DNA from: a bacterium
Lineage (GTDB): Bacteria; Oederibacteriota; Muellerivitia; Muellerivitales; Muellerivitaceae
Assembly: GCA_035549195.1 (NCBI GenBank)
Contig: DASZRK010000002.1
Coordinates: forward strand, 1-64,000
Length of the DNA stretch: 64,000 nt
Direction of reading: 5' to 3'
In this document: positions 5,951-56,242 of the stretch, piece by piece
Layout: each line of letters opens with the position of its first letter
How positions within the stretch are numbered: position 1 is the stretch's first letter
Program-made: the position numbers and the translations under genes
Notes under the pieces: model-generated
The model's input: the letters and a program-made list of their open reading frames with translations, nothing else
What the model was told of the DNA's origin: nothing
The model's database searches: none

Positions 5951-7834
5951 ATGAAATTCCCGGACCGGCTCACCCTCCCCCTGGTCTTCCTGGCCGCCTT
6001 TGGCCTGGCCCTTTGGGGCCTGAACCCAAGCTTTTATATGGACGATAGCCCGGAGATCACTACCGCGGCCGCCACCCTCGGCATCGCCCACCCGCCCGGC
6101 TATCCGCTCTATACCCTTCTGGGCCGCCTTCTTTCTTTATTACCGCTAGGGCCCATCTGCTTAAGGGTGAACCTGCTCGCCGCCCTTTCGGGCGCGGGGA
6201 CCTGCCTCCTTCTTTACATCCTTCTTTCCAGGACCGTCCAACTGCCCAAGGCCCTGGCCGCGCCCTTCTCGCTCATCTGGATGGCGGGGGCCACCGCCTA
6301 CCCGGCCTCTTTGAGCTCCAAGAACGGCGTTTATCAGATGGCGGCCCTCTTCATCCTGGCGACCCTGGCCTCCCTCTGGCGCTCCAAACGTCCCCTGGCC
6401 TTTATCCTCTTCGGCCTCTCCCTCGCCGGCCACTGGATGACCATGCTCCCCTGTCTCGGGGGATTCGGCTGGATCCTTTACAACCAATGGAAAGGGCGGC
6501 CGCTGCCGGTCAAGGAACTGGTCCGATCCATCGCGTTCCTCTTGCTGGGTCTTTCGCTTTATCTCTATCTCCCCCTTCGGTCTTCCTTGGACCCCGTCAT
6601 CAACTGGGCCCATCCGGTCGACCTCACCAACTTTTGGCACCACGTGACCCGCTATGTCGATAAGAACAAGGACTTCACTTGGGATATCGGCTTATGGGTC
6701 CAACAAGGACTGTTTTACCTGAAGGGGTCCTTCCTTGAGTTCAACGGCTTGGCATTGCTTTCGATCCTGGGGATATGGGCCCTCTGGAAAACCGAAAAAA
6801 ACCGGGCACTTGGACTGGGCCTGGCCTGGGCCGGCCTTTTGGCCGCCGTTTGTGTCTTCTCCAAATTCTCCAGCGGCCGGGAATACCTCATGCAGAACTA
6901 TTCCATCGCCTCCCTGGCCTTCATCCCGCTTTTGGCCGCCCTGGGCTGGCGGTGGCTGTCCGGAAGGTTCGCGGCACTGTCCGAGTTCGCCTCTCCACTG
7001 GCTTGGGCGCTCGCCTTGGGCCTCCTGTCCCTGGGACTCCCCCGGGGAAGCCAGGCGGGTTATACCTACAGCTACGACTACCTGCTCAACGCCTGGCGGG
7101 ACACGCCCAAGGGATCCTTTTTCTTCTGCAAAGGGGACGTGTTGGATTTCCCCGCCTGGTATTTCCAGATCATCGGCGGGAAAAGGCCCGACCTGGCGGT
7201 CCTGGGCGGCGGGAGCCTGCCGATGGATTGGTACCGCATCCACCTGGCCAAGACCCACCCGGGCCTGGTCGTTCCCTATCCCGTCCACGAAAAGGGCAAG
7301 GAATACATCTCAGGTCATCTGATGCTTTGGATGGTGGATCACAACCCGGACCGCCGCCTTTTCTTCACCTTCCCCGACCTCCGGGACGACGGGATGGCGG
7401 ACCGGACCCTGGTCCCCTATGGACTGGTCCAGGAAGCCTTCGGGCCGGGGACCCGGCCGCATTGGGATGAAGGACGGGCCGAAAGGCTTTGGGAGGACAT
7501 GCGGCTCCGGCATTTCGAGGCGGGCGACCGTTATGTGGACGAAGTGACCTGGGACCAGTTCTTGAGGGACTACGGCGCCACCCGGTCCTGGATGGCCGGC
7601 TATTACTCGAAAGAAGCCGGGGCCAAGGACGATCCGGCCCGTTCCCGAAAGGGGGAACTGCGGAAGGCCATCCCGCACCTGCTTTGGGCCCAGGCCTGGG
7701 ACCCGCGCAACGCGGCTTATGCCATGAACCTGGGGATCGCGGAGAATTATCTGGGGGAAAAGGAAGCGGCCCTTCGATGGTTCAAGACGGCCGCCGAGCT
7801 GGATCCCAGCCTCGTCCCACCTTCCGAACCTTGA
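5951..7834 (+). CDS. DUF2723-family membrane protein with TPR tail
   Basis: 627 residues. The N-terminus has the DUF2723 signature: MDDSPEITTAAATLGIAHPP, then GYPLYTLLGRL and RVNLLAALSGAG. About ten membrane segments follow to residue 370, then a soluble domain ending in a TPR-like repeat (NLGIAENYLGEKEAALRWF). DUF2723 proteins resemble GT-C mannosyltransferases, and members in Bacteroidetes act in protein O-glycosylation; that role here is inference. It starts four bases after the YfhO-like gene. No Shine-Dalgarno is evident, but TAAAAT at 5939-5944 lies six bases before the ATG, overlapping the upstream stop. The gene ends only two bases from the convergent GH5 gene with no clear terminator between them. 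Confidence 0.85.
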   Translation: MKFPDRLTLPLVFLAAFGLALWGLNPSFYMDDSPEITTAAATLGIAHPPGYPLYTLLGRLLSLLPLGPICLRVNLLAALSGAGTCLLLYILLSRTVQLPKALAAPFSLIWMAGATAYPASLSSKNGVYQMAALFILATLASLWRSKRPLAFILFGLSLAGHWMTMLPCLGGFGWILYNQWKGRPLPVKELVRSIAFLLLGLSLYLYLPLRSSLDPVINWAHPVDLTNFWHHVTRYVDKNKDFTWDIGLWVQQGLFYLKGSFLEFNGLALLSILGIWALWKTEKNRALGLGLAWAGLLAAVCVFSKFSSGREYLMQNYSIASLAFIPLLAALGWRWLSGRFAALSEFASPLAWALALGLLSLGLPRGSQAGYTYSYDYLLNAWRDTPKGSFFFCKGDVLDFPAWYFQIIGGKRPDLAVLGGGSLPMDWYRIHLAKTHPGLVVPYPVHEKGKEYISGHLMLWMVDHNPDRRLFFTFPDLRDDGMADRTLVPYGLVQEAFGPGTRPHWDEGRAERLWEDMRLRHFEAGDRYVDEVTWDQFLRDYGATRSWMAGYYSKEAGAKDDPARSRKGELRKAIPHLLWAQAWDPRNAAYAMNLGIAENYLGEKEAALRWFKTAAELDPSLVPPSEP

Positions 7835-50254: not shown

Positions 50255-51718
50255 TTAATAATAAGCCATGAGGGTGCCGATGCCCCCATTGTTCAGGTCG
50301 GAATAGGCCACGTAAGGAATTCCGTTGTAAAGATAGAGAGAGGGATAATCGGTGCCGCCAGGCGTGAAGCCCGCTCCGCCGACCGGGGACCAGGAAGATC
50401 CGTTGTAACTCAGGACCGTCAGCTTGTTCCCGAGCCCGCCATCCGAAAAAGCCGTGTACACCGTCCCGCCCGAAACGCCCAGGGAGCTAAAGCCGATCCC
50501 TCCGGTGGAGATCCCGTTGGAACCCAGGACGATCCATGCGCTTCCGTTGTAGCTCATGACCGTTTCTTTGTAGCTGTTGGCGACGTCCTGATAGGCCAAG
50601 TAAGGCGTCGTCCCGTCCATGAACAAATTGGTTAATTGGGCGGTCCCTGAAGTAAAGCTGGTGGGCCCCACAGCTACCCAGTTGCTCCCGTTGTAGGTCT
50701 CGACGGTGGCCTTGGACCCGTCCTCATAGCCGATATACAAAGCGCCCGAAGAAAATCGAAGGCTCGTACTATTAACGGTCCCGGCCGAAAAGCCGGCACC
50801 CCCGAGGTAACTCCATGAGCTCCCGTTATAGGTCATCACACTGGCCTTATAACCGTTGAGGGCGTCCTGAAAGGCCACATAAGGGGTCCCGGTCGAGGGG
50901 TCGATGGCCAGCGAAGCATAAGGGGCATTCGGCGTTGAAAAATTAGCGGCCCCCACATAAGACCAGGTGGATCCGTTGTACCCCAGGAGCGAGTTGTTCG
51001 GAGAGCCGCTATAGTCCAGGAAAGCCACGAAGGGGTTGTGGTTGTAGAAATCCAGGGAAAGGTAATCGGCCCGAGCGCTCGTGATATTCGTACTTCCGAC
51101 CGGGCTCCAGGAAGAACCGCTGTACTTCATGACCGAGGCTTTTTTTGAGTTGGCAACATCCTGGAAGGCCACGTAGGGGGTCCCGTTATCCACATAGAGG
51201 GAGATGTAATTCGCCGCGCCGGAGGAAAAACCGGTGGTTCCCACCTGGTGCCAACTGGGGATGGTGGGGGTTGGCGTCACCGTGTCCGTGGGGGTCGAGG
51301 TCGGGGTGTTCGACGGGGTGGAAGTGTTGCTGGCGGTGGGTGAATCGGTCACGGTCAGGGTCGGGGAATAAGTGAAGGTGGGGGTAACGGTCGGGGTGCT
51401 GGTGGGACTGTCCGTCGGCGTCGCGGACGGAGTGGCCGTGGAGGAGTCGGTCGGCGTTGAAGTCACGGTATCCGTGGGGGTGTTGACGGCAGTGGCTGTG
51501 CTGGAGGAGGTGGGGGTCGACGTTGGGGTTGAAGTAAGGGTGGAAGTGGCCGTATGGGTGGCGGTATTGACCAAGGTGTTGGTGGCCGTTGGGGTGGGGC
51601 TGGAGGTCGGCGGCGCGGGGCTGGTGGGGCTGTTGTTACTGTTCGAAGGGCAGCCAGCGAGGAACAGGGCCATTACAGCGCAAAGGGCCGATGCAAGATA
51701 AAGAGTGGATCGCTTCAC
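50255..51718 (-). CDS. Thr-linker lipoprotein with seven-bladed propeller repeats
   Basis: 487 residues from a GTG at 51718, with GGAGGG upstream. Signal peptide with lipobox ALFLAGC, then a Thr-rich linker to about residue 150. Seven repeats of about 48 residues follow, each of the form 'W..VG..gFs.g...y.SL.....tPYVAFqD..n..KasVM.YNGSSW': for example GTPYVAFQDVANSKKASVMK, TPYVAFQDALNGYKASVMTY and IPYVAYSDLNNGGIGTLMAY. Seven units point to a seven-bladed beta-propeller. Surface-exposed ligand binding is likely. The repeat has no close match in my memory of named families. It is followed by the HxlR fragment on the other strand. Confidence 0.82.
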   Translation of the reverse strand: MKRSTLYLASALCAVMALFLAGCPSNSNNSPTSPAPPTSSPTPTATNTLVNTATHTATSTLTSTPTSTPTSSSTATAVNTPTDTVTSTPTDSSTATPSATPTDSPTSTPTVTPTFTYSPTLTVTDSPTASNTSTPSNTPTSTPTDTVTPTPTIPSWHQVGTTGFSSGAANYISLYVDNGTPYVAFQDVANSKKASVMKYSGSSWSPVGSTNITSARADYLSLDFYNHNPFVAFLDYSGSPNNSLLGYNGSTWSYVGAANFSTPNAPYASLAIDPSTGTPYVAFQDALNGYKASVMTYNGSSWSYLGGAGFSAGTVNSTSLRFSSGALYIGYEDGSKATVETYNGSNWVAVGPTSFTSGTAQLTNLFMDGTTPYLAYQDVANSYKETVMSYNGSAWIVLGSNGISTGGIGFSSLGVSGGTVYTAFSDGGLGNKLTVLSYNGSSWSPVGGAGFTPGGTDYPSLYLYNGIPYVAYSDLNNGGIGTLMAYY

Positions 51719-52181: not shown

Positions 52182-53186
52182 TTAGGGGGCTTGGAGCGCT
52201 TTGCGCCTTCTGTAGCTAATGACGGTCGCCACGATAATGGCCAAGGCGATCAAGAAAGCCAAGATCGGCCGGGACCAAAGTTCCGAGAATTGGTCCACCC
52301 TGAAATCGGCCGGTTCCGTCGGGTCATAAAGGACTTTGACCGTCTGGCCGACATTGGGCATCAAGAACTCCAAGCCCGAGCGATTCCTGCTTTCCAAAGT
52401 GAGTTTCACACCTTTTTGCGTCGTAAAGCAGACCTCAAGGTCCTCGTAGCCCGAACGGCCGCTGGAATGATGGATCCACCGGGTCACGACCCCGGTCGTG
52501 GGAAGGGCCGTCTTCAAGAATTCGGTCGTACGCCAGATCATAAAACTTCCACCACCCAGAAGAAGGGCCACCATGAGCCCGACCAGGAGGGCCGCCGCCC
52601 CAGGGGGCAGGGGTTTCCGGGCTTGGCTCCCATTCGGCGGCTGGGGCACCCCTTTTTTGATCTCCCGGATCCTCAAGATCCCGATCGTCGCGGGGATACC
52701 CAGGATCAATAACGCAAAAACGATGATCACCCAATCTTCCCCTGGGAAATGGCGTATCAGCATGTCTTGAACGATGAAATAAAGGCCGGCAAGGAAAAGA
52801 CCGCCTAAGAGGATCACCATCAGCCAATAAGGGAGAGTGGAAGGCCTACCCTTGCGGTCATCCTTCACCTCACCCTGTGGTCTTTCCAAGCCCCGATCCG
52901 CCGACCAAGGCCCCAACCCGAACATCTTTTTGATCGCAGCGACCGCGAGAAAGTAACCGATCAGTAATGGGAGAATGATGGCGAGATAGAGGGGAAAGAA
53001 CAGGAAAGCGGTAAGTCGTTTGAGAGAGCTCGCCGTTTCGGGGCTAGGGAGATACCAAGAATAGATCTTTGAAGCCACCAACAAGCTGAAAAGGCCGATC
53101 AAGACAATACCAATGACCCCGAAAAAGGTCTCGACCGAAGAAGGCTTCTTATAGTTCTTGGACATCGGATACTTGGGGTTTCTCAA
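52182..53186 (-). CDS. DUF3592-like membrane protein
   Basis: 334 residues. The start is a TTG at 53186 with AAAGG about seven bases upstream; an ATG seven codons later has no site. Six or seven membrane helices. Between the last two lies a domain like DUF3592: LPTTGVVTRWIHHSSGRSGY, EDLEVCFTTQKGVKLTLESR, VGQTVKVLYDPTEPADFRVD. In DUF3592 proteins this segment is extracytoplasmic and followed by a final helix, as here (PILAFLIALAIIVATVISYR). Function unknown. Base composition falls between that of the GC-rich surroundings and the AT-rich island that starts 160 bases to its right. Confidence 0.75.
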   Translation of the reverse strand: MRNPKYPMSKNYKKPSSVETFFGVIGIVLIGLFSLLVASKIYSWYLPSPETASSLKRLTAFLFFPLYLAIILPLLIGYFLAVAAIKKMFGLGPWSADRGLERPQGEVKDDRKGRPSTLPYWLMVILLGGLFLAGLYFIVQDMLIRHFPGEDWVIIVFALLILGIPATIGILRIREIKKGVPQPPNGSQARKPLPPGAAALLVGLMVALLLGGGSFMIWRTTEFLKTALPTTGVVTRWIHHSSGRSGYEDLEVCFTTQKGVKLTLESRNRSGLEFLMPNVGQTVKVLYDPTEPADFRVDQFSELWSRPILAFLIALAIIVATVISYRRRKALQAP

Positions 53187-53296: not shown

Positions 53297-53317
53297 CAAA
53301 AAATGGGCTTAGCCCAT
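53297..53317 (-). terminator. Intrinsic terminator
   Basis: Minus strand: ATGGGCT-A-AGCCCAT followed by TTTTTTG. It closes the HigB/HigA/beta-protein operon, 31 bases past the last stop. Confidence 0.75.
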
Positions 53318-53347
53318 CTGTTCTCTACACCTTTTATTTCTCAAGCT

Positions 53348-54514
53348 TCAATCTTTGGGGTTAATCTCTTCGTTGCTTTTTGTTTTCAAAAGTAGCGGAA
53401 TTTGTACCGGAGAAATAGTTTTTGAAAAAGAATTGATTATTTGATTCTTAGTTAAAGTAATGTGACGATTTGTATCGATTGAAACCCAACTTTGAAGATT
53501 TCCCGTTGATCCACTACCTTGGGCGCATTTAGCTATTCTCCCATCCCCCCAGGAATAGTCCGCGCTATCGAATTCTTCATTGTCAAATACTTGCTTCGCC
53601 AAATTGTGATACTGCCCGTATCCTTTTTTTAGGCTATGCCCTTTAAACACCAACCATTCACCACTAGTTGCATAGCGAATTTTTCCACTCGGACTCATTT
53701 TCCGCGGATTGAAGTTCAAAAAATTAGGATGAACAATTCCATAATCTCCAAAGAATAAATTTATATTTTCATTCTTAAAGTACTCGAACAAACCCTCCCA
53801 AAGCTTTACTTCATGCCTCGATATCTTGAAAACAGAATCACATTTAACTTTACCTAACGTCTCCGGGAAACTTGATGCGACTACAATAAATGTATTCGTC
53901 AAACCTAGCCGAAGCATCTTGTTAATCGTTCCGATAGCCAAATGGGTATAAGAAATAATGTCTGATAGATTAATCGACCTAAAATCCAGCATCACATCAA
54001 AACCAATATGATTTTTACCGCTGACCAATCGACGCAATAAATCCTCAAACCATTTTCGAGATTGTTGATAGTTCCTCATATCCAATTCGAACAATCTCAA
54101 ACAAGCCTTTTGCCGATTTCTCTGAATGATTTTTTTGAATTCGGAAATATAAAATTCATCTCTATCAAAACCTATCGTTGGAAAGGCATGAATACCGCGT
54201 TTGTCAAAATAGGCGTCAACAAATTTCAAAGGATGTGAACCATCCTCGAGTCTTTCATTAAAACCAAAATCAAATAAATCGTAGTAGATTTCAGATCCCC
54301 AAGACGATATCAACTTGTCACAGGTTCTTTGCAAGTGCATTTCGAGAGAACTTTTCGGGATACCATCCGGATGCTCTTCCGAATATTTTAAATCGACATT
54401 TGGAATATCGATAAAAGGAACTATTCCCGAGACCACATCAGCAGATAACATCTTAAGTGCGTGAAATTCTCCAGCTTTACCCTTTAAAACCGGAACATAA
54501 ATAGGATCGTTCAT
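53348..54514 (-). CDS. T4 beta-family protein
   Basis: 388 residues; AAGGTGAGGTGAAAG precedes the ATG. It resembles the 'beta protein' family named after a phage T4 protein: YVPVLKGKAGEFHALKML at the start, VVSGIVPFIDIPNVDL, LKFVDAYFDKRGIHAFPTIG, IGFDVMLDFRSINLSD, and RYATSGEWLVFKGHSLKKGY near the end. These proteins have a TIM-barrel-like repeating pattern and turn up in mobile and defence gene sets; no biochemical role is settled. Third gene of an operon behind a HigB toxin and a HigA/protease fusion, eight bases after the latter. Its composition is AT-rich and codon use differs sharply from neighbours, a sign of transfer. Confidence 0.75.
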   Translation of the reverse strand: MNDPIYVPVLKGKAGEFHALKMLSADVVSGIVPFIDIPNVDLKYSEEHPDGIPKSSLEMHLQRTCDKLISSWGSEIYYDLFDFGFNERLEDGSHPLKFVDAYFDKRGIHAFPTIGFDRDEFYISEFKKIIQRNRQKACLRLFELDMRNYQQSRKWFEDLLRRLVSGKNHIGFDVMLDFRSINLSDIISYTHLAIGTINKMLRLGLTNTFIVVASSFPETLGKVKCDSVFKISRHEVKLWEGLFEYFKNENINLFFGDYGIVHPNFLNFNPRKMSPSGKIRYATSGEWLVFKGHSLKKGYGQYHNLAKQVFDNEEFDSADYSWGDGRIAKCAQGSGSTGNLQSWVSIDTNRHITLTKNQIINSFSKTISPVQIPLLLKTKSNEEINPKD

Positions 54515-54522
54515 CTTTCACC

Positions 54523-55710
54523 TCACCTTACGGGCACAAATTCAAACTGCCTTCTTACTTCTCCCTGCCCAATCAGTTTAGAAAAGTTTATGTAGTTGTT
54601 TTTTTCTCGCCGAACCTGACCAGCAATAATGGCCGGATGAACATTCCAGATTTTGGAATATTCAAATATCAGTTTTTCGGATGGTTGTTTAACTAAAGCG
54701 CTTCTAGTCCAATCTTTTCGTGAAATTAAATACTCTGTCGCATAAAAATCCGCTTCTTTTTCCAACTCATCGGATGCATCGGAATCAATATCATCAAAAA
54801 AGAAAAATTCACTTTTCTTCAAATGCATTTTGATGTGCACCAATTCATGCATTAATGTGAACCAGAAATTATCAATACGATCGAACCTTAGTGTCATTCC
54901 AACAATTGGATTCCCTTTACTTGTAAAAAAGGAGGCGCCATCCAATTTCGTTTTAGGAAGGTGTTGCACAATCAATAATACAATTCCAAATTGCAGCAGG
55001 CGTTCCATTGCCAATCTTGGGCCATCATTTGCTAAACTCAGATTCGAAAGACCCCTCAAAAACTTTTCCGTAATTAACCCGGGGTCATACTCGGGAATAT
55101 TTTTTTTGTCTTCCGCCTCCTTTAAAACTCTGGCTGCCCATGCATGAAGTGAATAAACATCGAAAGAATCGCTTCCTTTTCCTGCAAATGTTTTTCGAAA
55201 CATAACCGGCGAAGGCAAAAATGCTCCCTTTCTCTTAAAAAGAGATTCGAAAGAATCAAATACTTCTCGTTCGGTTTTTCCAGAGATCCACCCCAGTTTC
55301 TTCATCGGACTAATCGGATATTTAGAAATGTCGACTGAGTCTCCGACATTTGACTTTTCGATAAGAAGGTCAATTGGTATTGACAACCCCTGTGATAGCA
55401 AACGAATCATTTGCAAGGTCAAGTTACGCTTTCCTGAGAGAACTTCCGAAACCTTGCTTTTTGAGCCTATATATTGGATTAAATCTGATTGTTTCAACCC
55501 ACGCTCTTCCATACGAAAAACAATTGCGTCTATAGGATTGGGGGAACTTATTGGAAAAGCTCCCTTTTCATATCGCTCCACTAAAACACCCAATAATTTT
55601 AGTTTCTCGGCCTCTGGAGTCCCCTCTGCCGGATCTAAAGCCATTAATCTGTTTATCTCGGTTAACGAGTCTTCATATTCAGTTTCTGTATTAATTACTC
55701 GCGGTTCCAT
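54523..55710 (-). CDS. HigA antitoxin fused to ImmA/IrrE-type metalloprotease
   Basis: 395 residues; AAGGTGATG precedes the ATG. Residues 1-125 have the length and pattern of a HigA antitoxin of the COG5499 kind: EYEDSLTEINRLMALDPAEG, then a helix-turn-helix in LKQSDLIQYIGSKSKVSEVL, SGKRNLTLQMIRLLSQGLSI. Residues 150-395 add an ImmA/IrrE-like metallopeptidase: FTLMHELVHIKMHLKK with HExxH and LEKEADFYATEYLISRKDW with the third ligand Glu. The usual HigA ends near residue 120-130, so the protease domain is an extra. It probably represses the operon, neutralises HigB and may cleave a target. Four bases separate it from higB. Confidence 0.88.
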   Translation of the reverse strand: MEPRVINTETEYEDSLTEINRLMALDPAEGTPEAEKLKLLGVLVERYEKGAFPISSPNPIDAIVFRMEERGLKQSDLIQYIGSKSKVSEVLSGKRNLTLQMIRLLSQGLSIPIDLLIEKSNVGDSVDISKYPISPMKKLGWISGKTEREVFDSFESLFKRKGAFLPSPVMFRKTFAGKGSDSFDVYSLHAWAARVLKEAEDKKNIPEYDPGLITEKFLRGLSNLSLANDGPRLAMERLLQFGIVLLIVQHLPKTKLDGASFFTSKGNPIVGMTLRFDRIDNFWFTLMHELVHIKMHLKKSEFFFFDDIDSDASDELEKEADFYATEYLISRKDWTRSALVKQPSEKLIFEYSKIWNVHPAIIAGQVRREKNNYINFSKLIGQGEVRRQFEFVPVR

Positions 55711-55714
55711 TACA

Positions 55715-56005
55715 TCACCTTGTCTTATTTCTTACGTCGTATTCCTTGTGCGTTCCAATCCAAACGACTTTTATCAATCCCCCGCCATAAGAGACTTCGA
55801 CTTCTAATCGATAGTCATTTCCTCTTATGTCAAAGATAACTATTCTCCCTTTTAAGATGCTCGCTTTTGCAAATGTGTTAGTCACGTCCTGCGGCAATTT
55901 CCAGACCGCCTTTTCTGTAATAGAAATCCAAACCTCGATTGAACTCTTGGCATCAGGGTGTTTTCGATAAAAATCGAACAACAAATCGCGTCGAATAATT
56001 AACAT
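55715..56005 (-). CDS. higB: HigB-type mRNA interferase toxin
   Basis: 96 residues; GGAAAG precedes the ATG. It fits the HigB family closely: MLIIRRDLLFDFYRKHPDAK, SIEVWISITEKAVWKLPQDV, TNTFAKASILKGRIVIFDIR, GNDYRLEVEVSYGGGLIKVV, GTHKEYDV. The catalytic-type basic and His residues near the end (GTHKEYD) are kept, so it is probably active. HigB toxins cut mRNA on the ribosome. First gene of the island operon; toxin before antitoxin is the usual higBA order. AT-rich. A candidate operator (inverted AAGTTCCCA) lies just upstream. Confidence 0.9.
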   Translation of the reverse strand: MLIIRRDLLFDFYRKHPDAKSSIEVWISITEKAVWKLPQDVTNTFAKASILKGRIVIFDIRGNDYRLEVEVSYGGGLIKVVWIGTHKEYDVRNKTR

Positions 56006-56056
56006 TACTTTCCCGATTACTTCTCTTTTGCCAGCTCATATGACAACAATACATGA

Positions 56057-56108
56057 AAGTTCCCAAAATATGAACAAAATAATAATAAAAAACACACCAT
56101 GGGAACTT
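56057..56108. promoter_or_regulatory. Inverted-repeat operator upstream of higB
   Basis: AAGTTCCCA (56057-56065) and TGGGAACTT (56100-56108) are exact inverse copies, with centres 43 bases apart (about four helical turns). They enclose an A/T-rich promoter-like stretch. The likely ligand is the HigA helix-turn-helix domain. Confidence 0.6.
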
Positions 56109-56137
56109 ATTGATCTTTTTCAACATTAGAAACAAAC

Positions 56138-56170
56138 AAAAAAGCCCCACCCTCCGGAGAGAGCGGGGCT
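56138..56170 (-). terminator. Intrinsic terminator of nrdJ
   Basis: Minus strand: AGCCCC, loop with inner CTCC/GGAG, GGGGCT, TTTTTTG. It separates the GC-rich nrdJ gene from the AT-rich island. Confidence 0.85.
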
Positions 56171-56242
56171 CGGCCTAACTTTAGGTTGCCCCTCATTGCA
56201 TGAGGGACAAGATCGTCAACGGCGGGCAGCGCTCCTAACTCA

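Follow-up and report, generated by a model that had tools for sequence, protein, structure and literature searches.

A probable PD-lambda-2 defence operon in an AT-rich island behind nrdJ in a bacterium of a candidate phylum

The stretch of DNA analysed here (64,000 nucleotides, called the window in the following) contains three co-directional genes, A, B and C, on the minus strand, which follow each other with gaps of only 4 bases (A/B, 55715 and 55710) and 8 bases (B/C, 54523 and 54514), as an initial annotation had stated. These genes and the terminators on either side of them are:

55715-56005, minus strand: PD-lambda-2 A (putative), HigB-like protein, 96 aa
54523-55710, minus strand: PD-lambda-2 B (putative), fusion of a HigA-type helix-turn-helix and an M78/ImmA-IrrE metallopeptidase, 395 aa
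53348-54514, minus strand: PD-lambda-2 C (putative), P4 beta-family protein, 388 aa
53301-53319, minus strand: the operon's intrinsic terminator, 8-bp stem, 3-nt loop and T tail
56142-56171, minus strand: terminator of the upstream nrdJ, kept in relatives; the AT-rich island starts just past it

The region 53348-56005 has a GC content of 38.4%, compared to 60.9% for the whole window, and is the window's lowest-GC stretch of 2.66 kb, the minimum outside this neighbourhood being 56.5%. At codon position 3, A, B and C have a GC fraction of 0.35-0.43, in contrast to 0.91 in nrdJ and 0.89 in pgi; the genes adjoining the island range from 0.69 to 0.91. Both the AT-rich island and an own terminator had been proposed before and are borne out here, the terminator hairpin having a folding energy of -17.1 kcal/mol versus -8.7 kcal/mol for shuffled sequences (z = -3.5). 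With one promoter region and one terminator, the genes in the order A-B-C form a putative single operon. Past the operon terminator lies a gene for a DUF3592-domain membrane protein (52182-53186), to which two of seven family members have short partial matches, and further on a probable lipoprotein is encoded (50255-51718), in which a long Thr/Pro-rich stretch is followed by repeated YNGSSW-like units.

The contig reaches beyond 311 kb and its nrdJ is 87-93% identical to the nrdJ of family members, thus the island is located in host DNA and a binning error is unlikely. The surroundings of the island showed neither an integrase nor a flanking repeat, and the ten neighbouring genes gave no match to a PADLOC model at 1e-5 that would indicate a surrounding defence island. 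Around the island, the window has no att-like duplication of the 3´ end of nrdJ, though relatives have one. In the sister genome G002, the last 84 bases of nrdJ recur about 1 kb downstream (L115:5944-6027 and 6941-7207), and the repeats flank two small genes resembling a nucleotidyltransferase/HEPN toxin-antitoxin pair. In the sister genome G004, 35 bases of the 3´ end of nrdJ are repeated just behind this gene, and an AT-rich stretch follows (L116:2338-2372). Within this family, insertions may occur preferentially at the 3´ end of nrdJ. The DNA 3´ of nrdJ has no genes in common among the family members examined, and the exact empty site was unobtainable.

Protein A matches the Pfam family HigB_toxin (PF09907, 1.9e-21), aligns with E. 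coli HigB (5YCL, 5IFG) and retains the motifs GN-x-Y-R (R66) and THKEYD (H86, Y89), which we use here as motifs common to E. coli HigB and not as proven catalytic residues. Since these motifs are retained, A of the window may still be an RNase. Protein B matches Peptidase_M78 (PF06114, 1.4e-6), and its HTH_3 score falls just below the Pfam cut-off. Residues 7-116 of B align with E. coli HigA (5YCL/5IFG), the helix-turn-helix domain comprising approximately residues 1-120, and the metallopeptidase motif consists of HELVH (288-292), H296 and E317. The residues H288, E289, H292, H296 and E317 are invariant in all 74 aligned B relatives, thus the peptidase is under strong constraint. The AF2 model of B (pLDDT 88) resembles HigA and, weakly, CapP (7T5T, E 0.013). 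Like CapP of CapH/CapP and like ImmA/IrrE/PprI, B has an M78-type HExxH metallopeptidase tied to a helix-turn-helix; in contrast to these, both parts are located on one polypeptide, which has a HigB partner. Compared to HigBA of E. coli K-12 (5IFG, 5YCL, 6KML), A corresponds to HigB and the N-terminal part of B to HigA, whereas in the window HigA continues into an M78 part of about 270 residues, with beta as the next gene. The order HigB then HigA is that of type II HigBA pairs, but the fusion of HigA to a peptidase is unlike the classical pair.

Protein C matches only one Pfam family, Beta_protein (PF14350, 9e-60), and the PADLOC model "beta" (2.3e-12). The beta family is that of satellite phage P4; an origin in T4, as in the name "T4 beta-family" used at first, was rejected. 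The AF2 model of C (pLDDT 88, pTM 0.88) predicts a (beta/alpha)8-barrel-like fold, in which the conserved residues D79, R140, D177, R233 and D257 are located at or beside the strand ends. Barrel enzymes have their active sites at the strand ends, and an enzymatic or ligand-binding role of C is suggested by the predicted model. A PDB search with this model gave weak matches to barrel enzymes that name no enzyme activity, and one close structural match is an uncharacterised Gordonia phage protein. In the sister genome G001 (L120:6042-6968), the match of C of the PD-lambda-2 locus to the beta family is confined to the family's first half, the C-terminal part of this protein being different. A third component from the beta family also distinguishes the locus from toxin-antitoxin-chaperone (TAC) systems, in which this component is a SecB-like chaperone.

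All three proteins match the PADLOC component profiles of the defence system PD-lambda-2 over nearly their full lengths: PD-Lambda-2_A matches A (2.4e-31, residues 1-93 of 96), PD-Lambda-2_B matches B (6e-141, residues 1-390 of 395) and PD-Lambda-2_C matches C (4.6e-69, residues 1-363 of 388). The gene order A-B-C in the window is the order published for PD-lambda-2, and with a HigB-like A, an Xre/HigA-peptidase fusion as B, a beta-related C and tight spacing the layout is the same. The three-gene set almost certainly belongs to PD-lambda-2, and the locus is a real, well-delimited defence operon that is known in kind. PD-lambda-2 was identified by functional selection in E. coli (Vassallo et al. 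2022, PMC9519451) and is described there as a validated, toxin-antitoxin-like abortive defence against phage λ in which overexpressed B is toxic and A rescues it, while C is dispensable for neutralisation and needed for defence against λvir. The proposal of a three-gene defence or toxin-antitoxin-like module agrees with this published system, and the required C of PD-lambda-2 fits the idea that the beta protein is a separate functional part. The proposal that the module is undescribed does not hold: a new defence system could explain why the identity to the relatives found is modest (at best 45% for B and 32% for C) and why the copy of the sister genome G002 bears a fourth gene, but the in-order matches to all three published component profiles make such a system exceedingly improbable. 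The window copy differs from the published system in its host lineage and its low identity to relatives, and it is known here from sequence.

To see how widely the set occurs, genomes with B were scanned, which gave 80 loci from many phyla, and these were pooled with the loci of relatives. A strong full-length B was found in 83 loci, of which 51 also have C and 44 hold A, B and C, these counts being slightly high since a few places were fetched twice (for example L001/L002 and L003/L089). The set therefore co-occurs elsewhere, as had been expected. The median gaps among relatives are 8 nucleotides for A/B and 3 nucleotides for B/C (43 aligned loci, many phyla). In the window's phylum, beta was found in 3 of 45 genomes, all three from the window's family, and each time directly behind B. 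The B protein of G002 is located elsewhere in the B tree than that of the window, and since no relative found exceeds 45% identity to the window B, the two copies were probably acquired independently.

A-B pairs without C are found as well: for 29 of the 74 aligned B proteins no C was detected at the locus, so that A-B functions somehow without beta. On the B tree, the pairs without C fall into several clusters, with label changes far below those of shuffles. In three such loci (L046, L064, L083), the A-B pair without beta adjoins other defence-like genes directly 3´ of B, encoding nucleotidyltransferase-like, PglZ-like and DUF4062-like proteins, as judged by eye from the translations.

A and B might also be a plain addiction module by which a mobile segment is maintained, C being a passenger. 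The many relatives that are A-B pairs without C and the AT-rich, foreign composition of the island would fit, but the close linkage of C to B across phyla, its occurrence only with B in the three beta-bearing genomes of the window's phylum and the missing integrase and flanking repeat speak against it, as does the need for C in λ defence by PD-lambda-2 (PMC9519451). We consider this explanation quite improbable. The best explanation for A-B-C is a horizontally acquired PD-lambda-2 copy, inserted behind the nrdJ terminator.

The initial annotation had placed an inverted-repeat operator at 56057-56108. The repeat is exact (AAGTTCCCA-N34-TGGGAACTT), and a similar one occurs in 4% of the shuffles; its arms, however, are half-sites of two separate palindromes with a spacing of three nucleotides, as follows:

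56059-56075 (core 56060-56074), minus strand: putative operator site 1, GTTCATA-TTT-TGGGAAC, 10 of 12 core positions
56091-56105, minus strand: putative operator site 2, TTCCCA-TGG-TGTGTT, 9 of 12 positions, 31 bp upstream of site 1

In relatives, the palindrome TTCCCA-N3-TGGGAA is located no more than 120 bp upstream of A. When the loci from which the motif had been derived are excluded and a threshold of 10 of 12 positions is applied, 37 of the 44 remaining loci, from different phyla, have it there, compared to 0 to 2 of 43-44 loci in each of seven other windows that served as control. A second set, taken from viral contigs, attains this threshold in 7 of 16 cases, versus 1 of 80 control windows, and some variants there keep the palindrome by paired changes, for example TTCTCA-N3-TGAGAA. 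Many relatives have one perfect copy of the operator, whereas the window has two degenerate ones. The genome contains the exact sequence of site 1 a single time. A wider operator regulon is not supported, since 78 genome sites with at most two mismatches compare to 103 for the reversed-pattern control. Judged from sequence, the palindrome would most plausibly be bound by the helix-turn-helix of B.

The roles first proposed, HigB as toxin and HigA as antitoxin, are probably wrong, because in PD-lambda-2 it is B that is toxic and A that neutralises (PMC9519451); the toxicity in this relative is thus reversed compared to type II HigBA. According to the classical roles, A would be a ribosome-dependent mRNA interferase and B an antitoxin that is destroyed on a signal by its own fused protease, with C as the sensor, and the freed A would stop translation. 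That A aligns with HigB and the N-terminal part of B with HigA of E. coli is consistent with this, as is the retention of R66, H86 and Y89, which are all present in the window and in A of 45 of the 52 loci. Besides the reversed toxicity, the remaining seven loci argue against it: the HigB-like A of six of them (L023, L024, L025, L027, L029, L079) lacks R66, H86 and Y89, and A of L040 lacks H86 and Y89. The classical assignment is therefore unlikely for this locus. The A gene is still in place in all seven, and together with the invariant peptidase residues of B this suggests that A acts as the partner of B rather than as an indispensable killer.

For the acquired PD-lambda-2 operon we propose the following mechanism. 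In the resting state, A and B would be joined in a HigBA-like complex in which B does no harm. Acting at the TTCCCA-N3-TGGGAA sites, this complex would also repress its own promoter. Upon infection, the beta-family barrel protein C would sense a phage product or a phage-induced change and perturb the A-B complex, thereby freeing B. The freed B would halt growth, most likely via its M78 peptidase or else by another activity, and the infection would abort. It could also be that overexpressed B kills via DNA binding rather than proteolysis. The assignment of B as effector and C as sensor is somewhat short of an even bet; the persistence of M78-beta pairs in loci where another protein replaces A (see below) and the sharing of beta with gop-beta-cII of satellite phage P4 suggest C as the sensing part that these systems have in common. 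In P4, however, beta has been described as the antitoxin to Gop (PMC9122126), which would make C a neutraliser and not a sensor. The best explanation overall is an acquired PD-lambda-2 with this mechanism, to which we give a probability of roughly 0.6.

The fourth gene mentioned above belongs to the sce7726 family (PADLOC cll, NCBIfam NF033832). As the initial annotation had noted for beta genes, such genes are often nearby: in 35 of the 45 C-bearing loci with room, the gene converges with C, the two 3´ ends overlapping by 44 nucleotides in most cases. The aligned sce7726 proteins share the pattern D...G-x-E-x-K-S, which in our reading of the sequences resembles PD-(D/E)XK nucleases. The window contains no match to an sce7726/cII gene, and a genome-wide search with the PADLOC cll model, done without a positive control, found none.

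A comparable arrangement is known from gop-beta-cII of P4, which protects against λ and P1 (Rousset et al. 2022, PMC9122126). There, gop-β is followed by cII tail-to-tail, with a gap of 27 nucleotides rather than an overlap. The beta-family protein is common to both, and gop-beta-cII and PD-lambda-2 both protect against λ. In contrast to gop-beta-cII, the window has no gop, which is replaced by the HigB/HigA-peptidase pair with B directly upstream of beta, and no convergent cII/sce7726 gene downstream of beta.

In Brevundimonas and Agrobacterium, a DUF6932 protein replaces A. Two loci (L124:3249-6609 and L095:5273-8708) have DUF6932 in place of HigB, followed by an Xre-peptidase, beta and a convergent sce7726 gene. 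Five viral contigs (L153, L155, L163, L164, L167) encode a GNAT-like protein of about 228 aa, this assignment being marginal, then a peptidase without HigA, beta and a convergent sce7726 gene. Since different genes precede beta, the first gene looks interchangeable, and β, with or without cII, looks like one unit that is combined with varied front modules. Possibly, both PD-lambda-2 and gop-beta-cII are assembled from the parts of a single modular family, a tentative idea about which we have some doubt. Such a family would have a constant beta barrel that senses a λ-type trigger, usually together with a tail-to-tail cII/sce7726 gene with the PD-(D/E)XK-like motif, and swappable fronts (Gop, HigB with HigA-M78, DUF6932 with Xre-M78, or a GNAT-like protein with M78), the window being a reduced three-gene form. 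The protection against λ by both characterised β systems suggests that β supplies the recognition of the trigger; with two systems to go by, it could also be a coincidence, given that both studies included λ among their phages. The open-licence literature yielded no earlier report of the operator, of how often the convergent cII occurs, of the interchangeable first gene, or of the invariant peptidase residues of B and the HigB motif losses in A, and such reports may exist elsewhere.

With this locus, a defence system that has been validated in E. coli is now placed in a candidate phylum. The comparison also provides leads that can be tested: the operator, the invariant peptidase site, the damaged HigB motif and the β-cII unit in common with P4 gop-β-cII.
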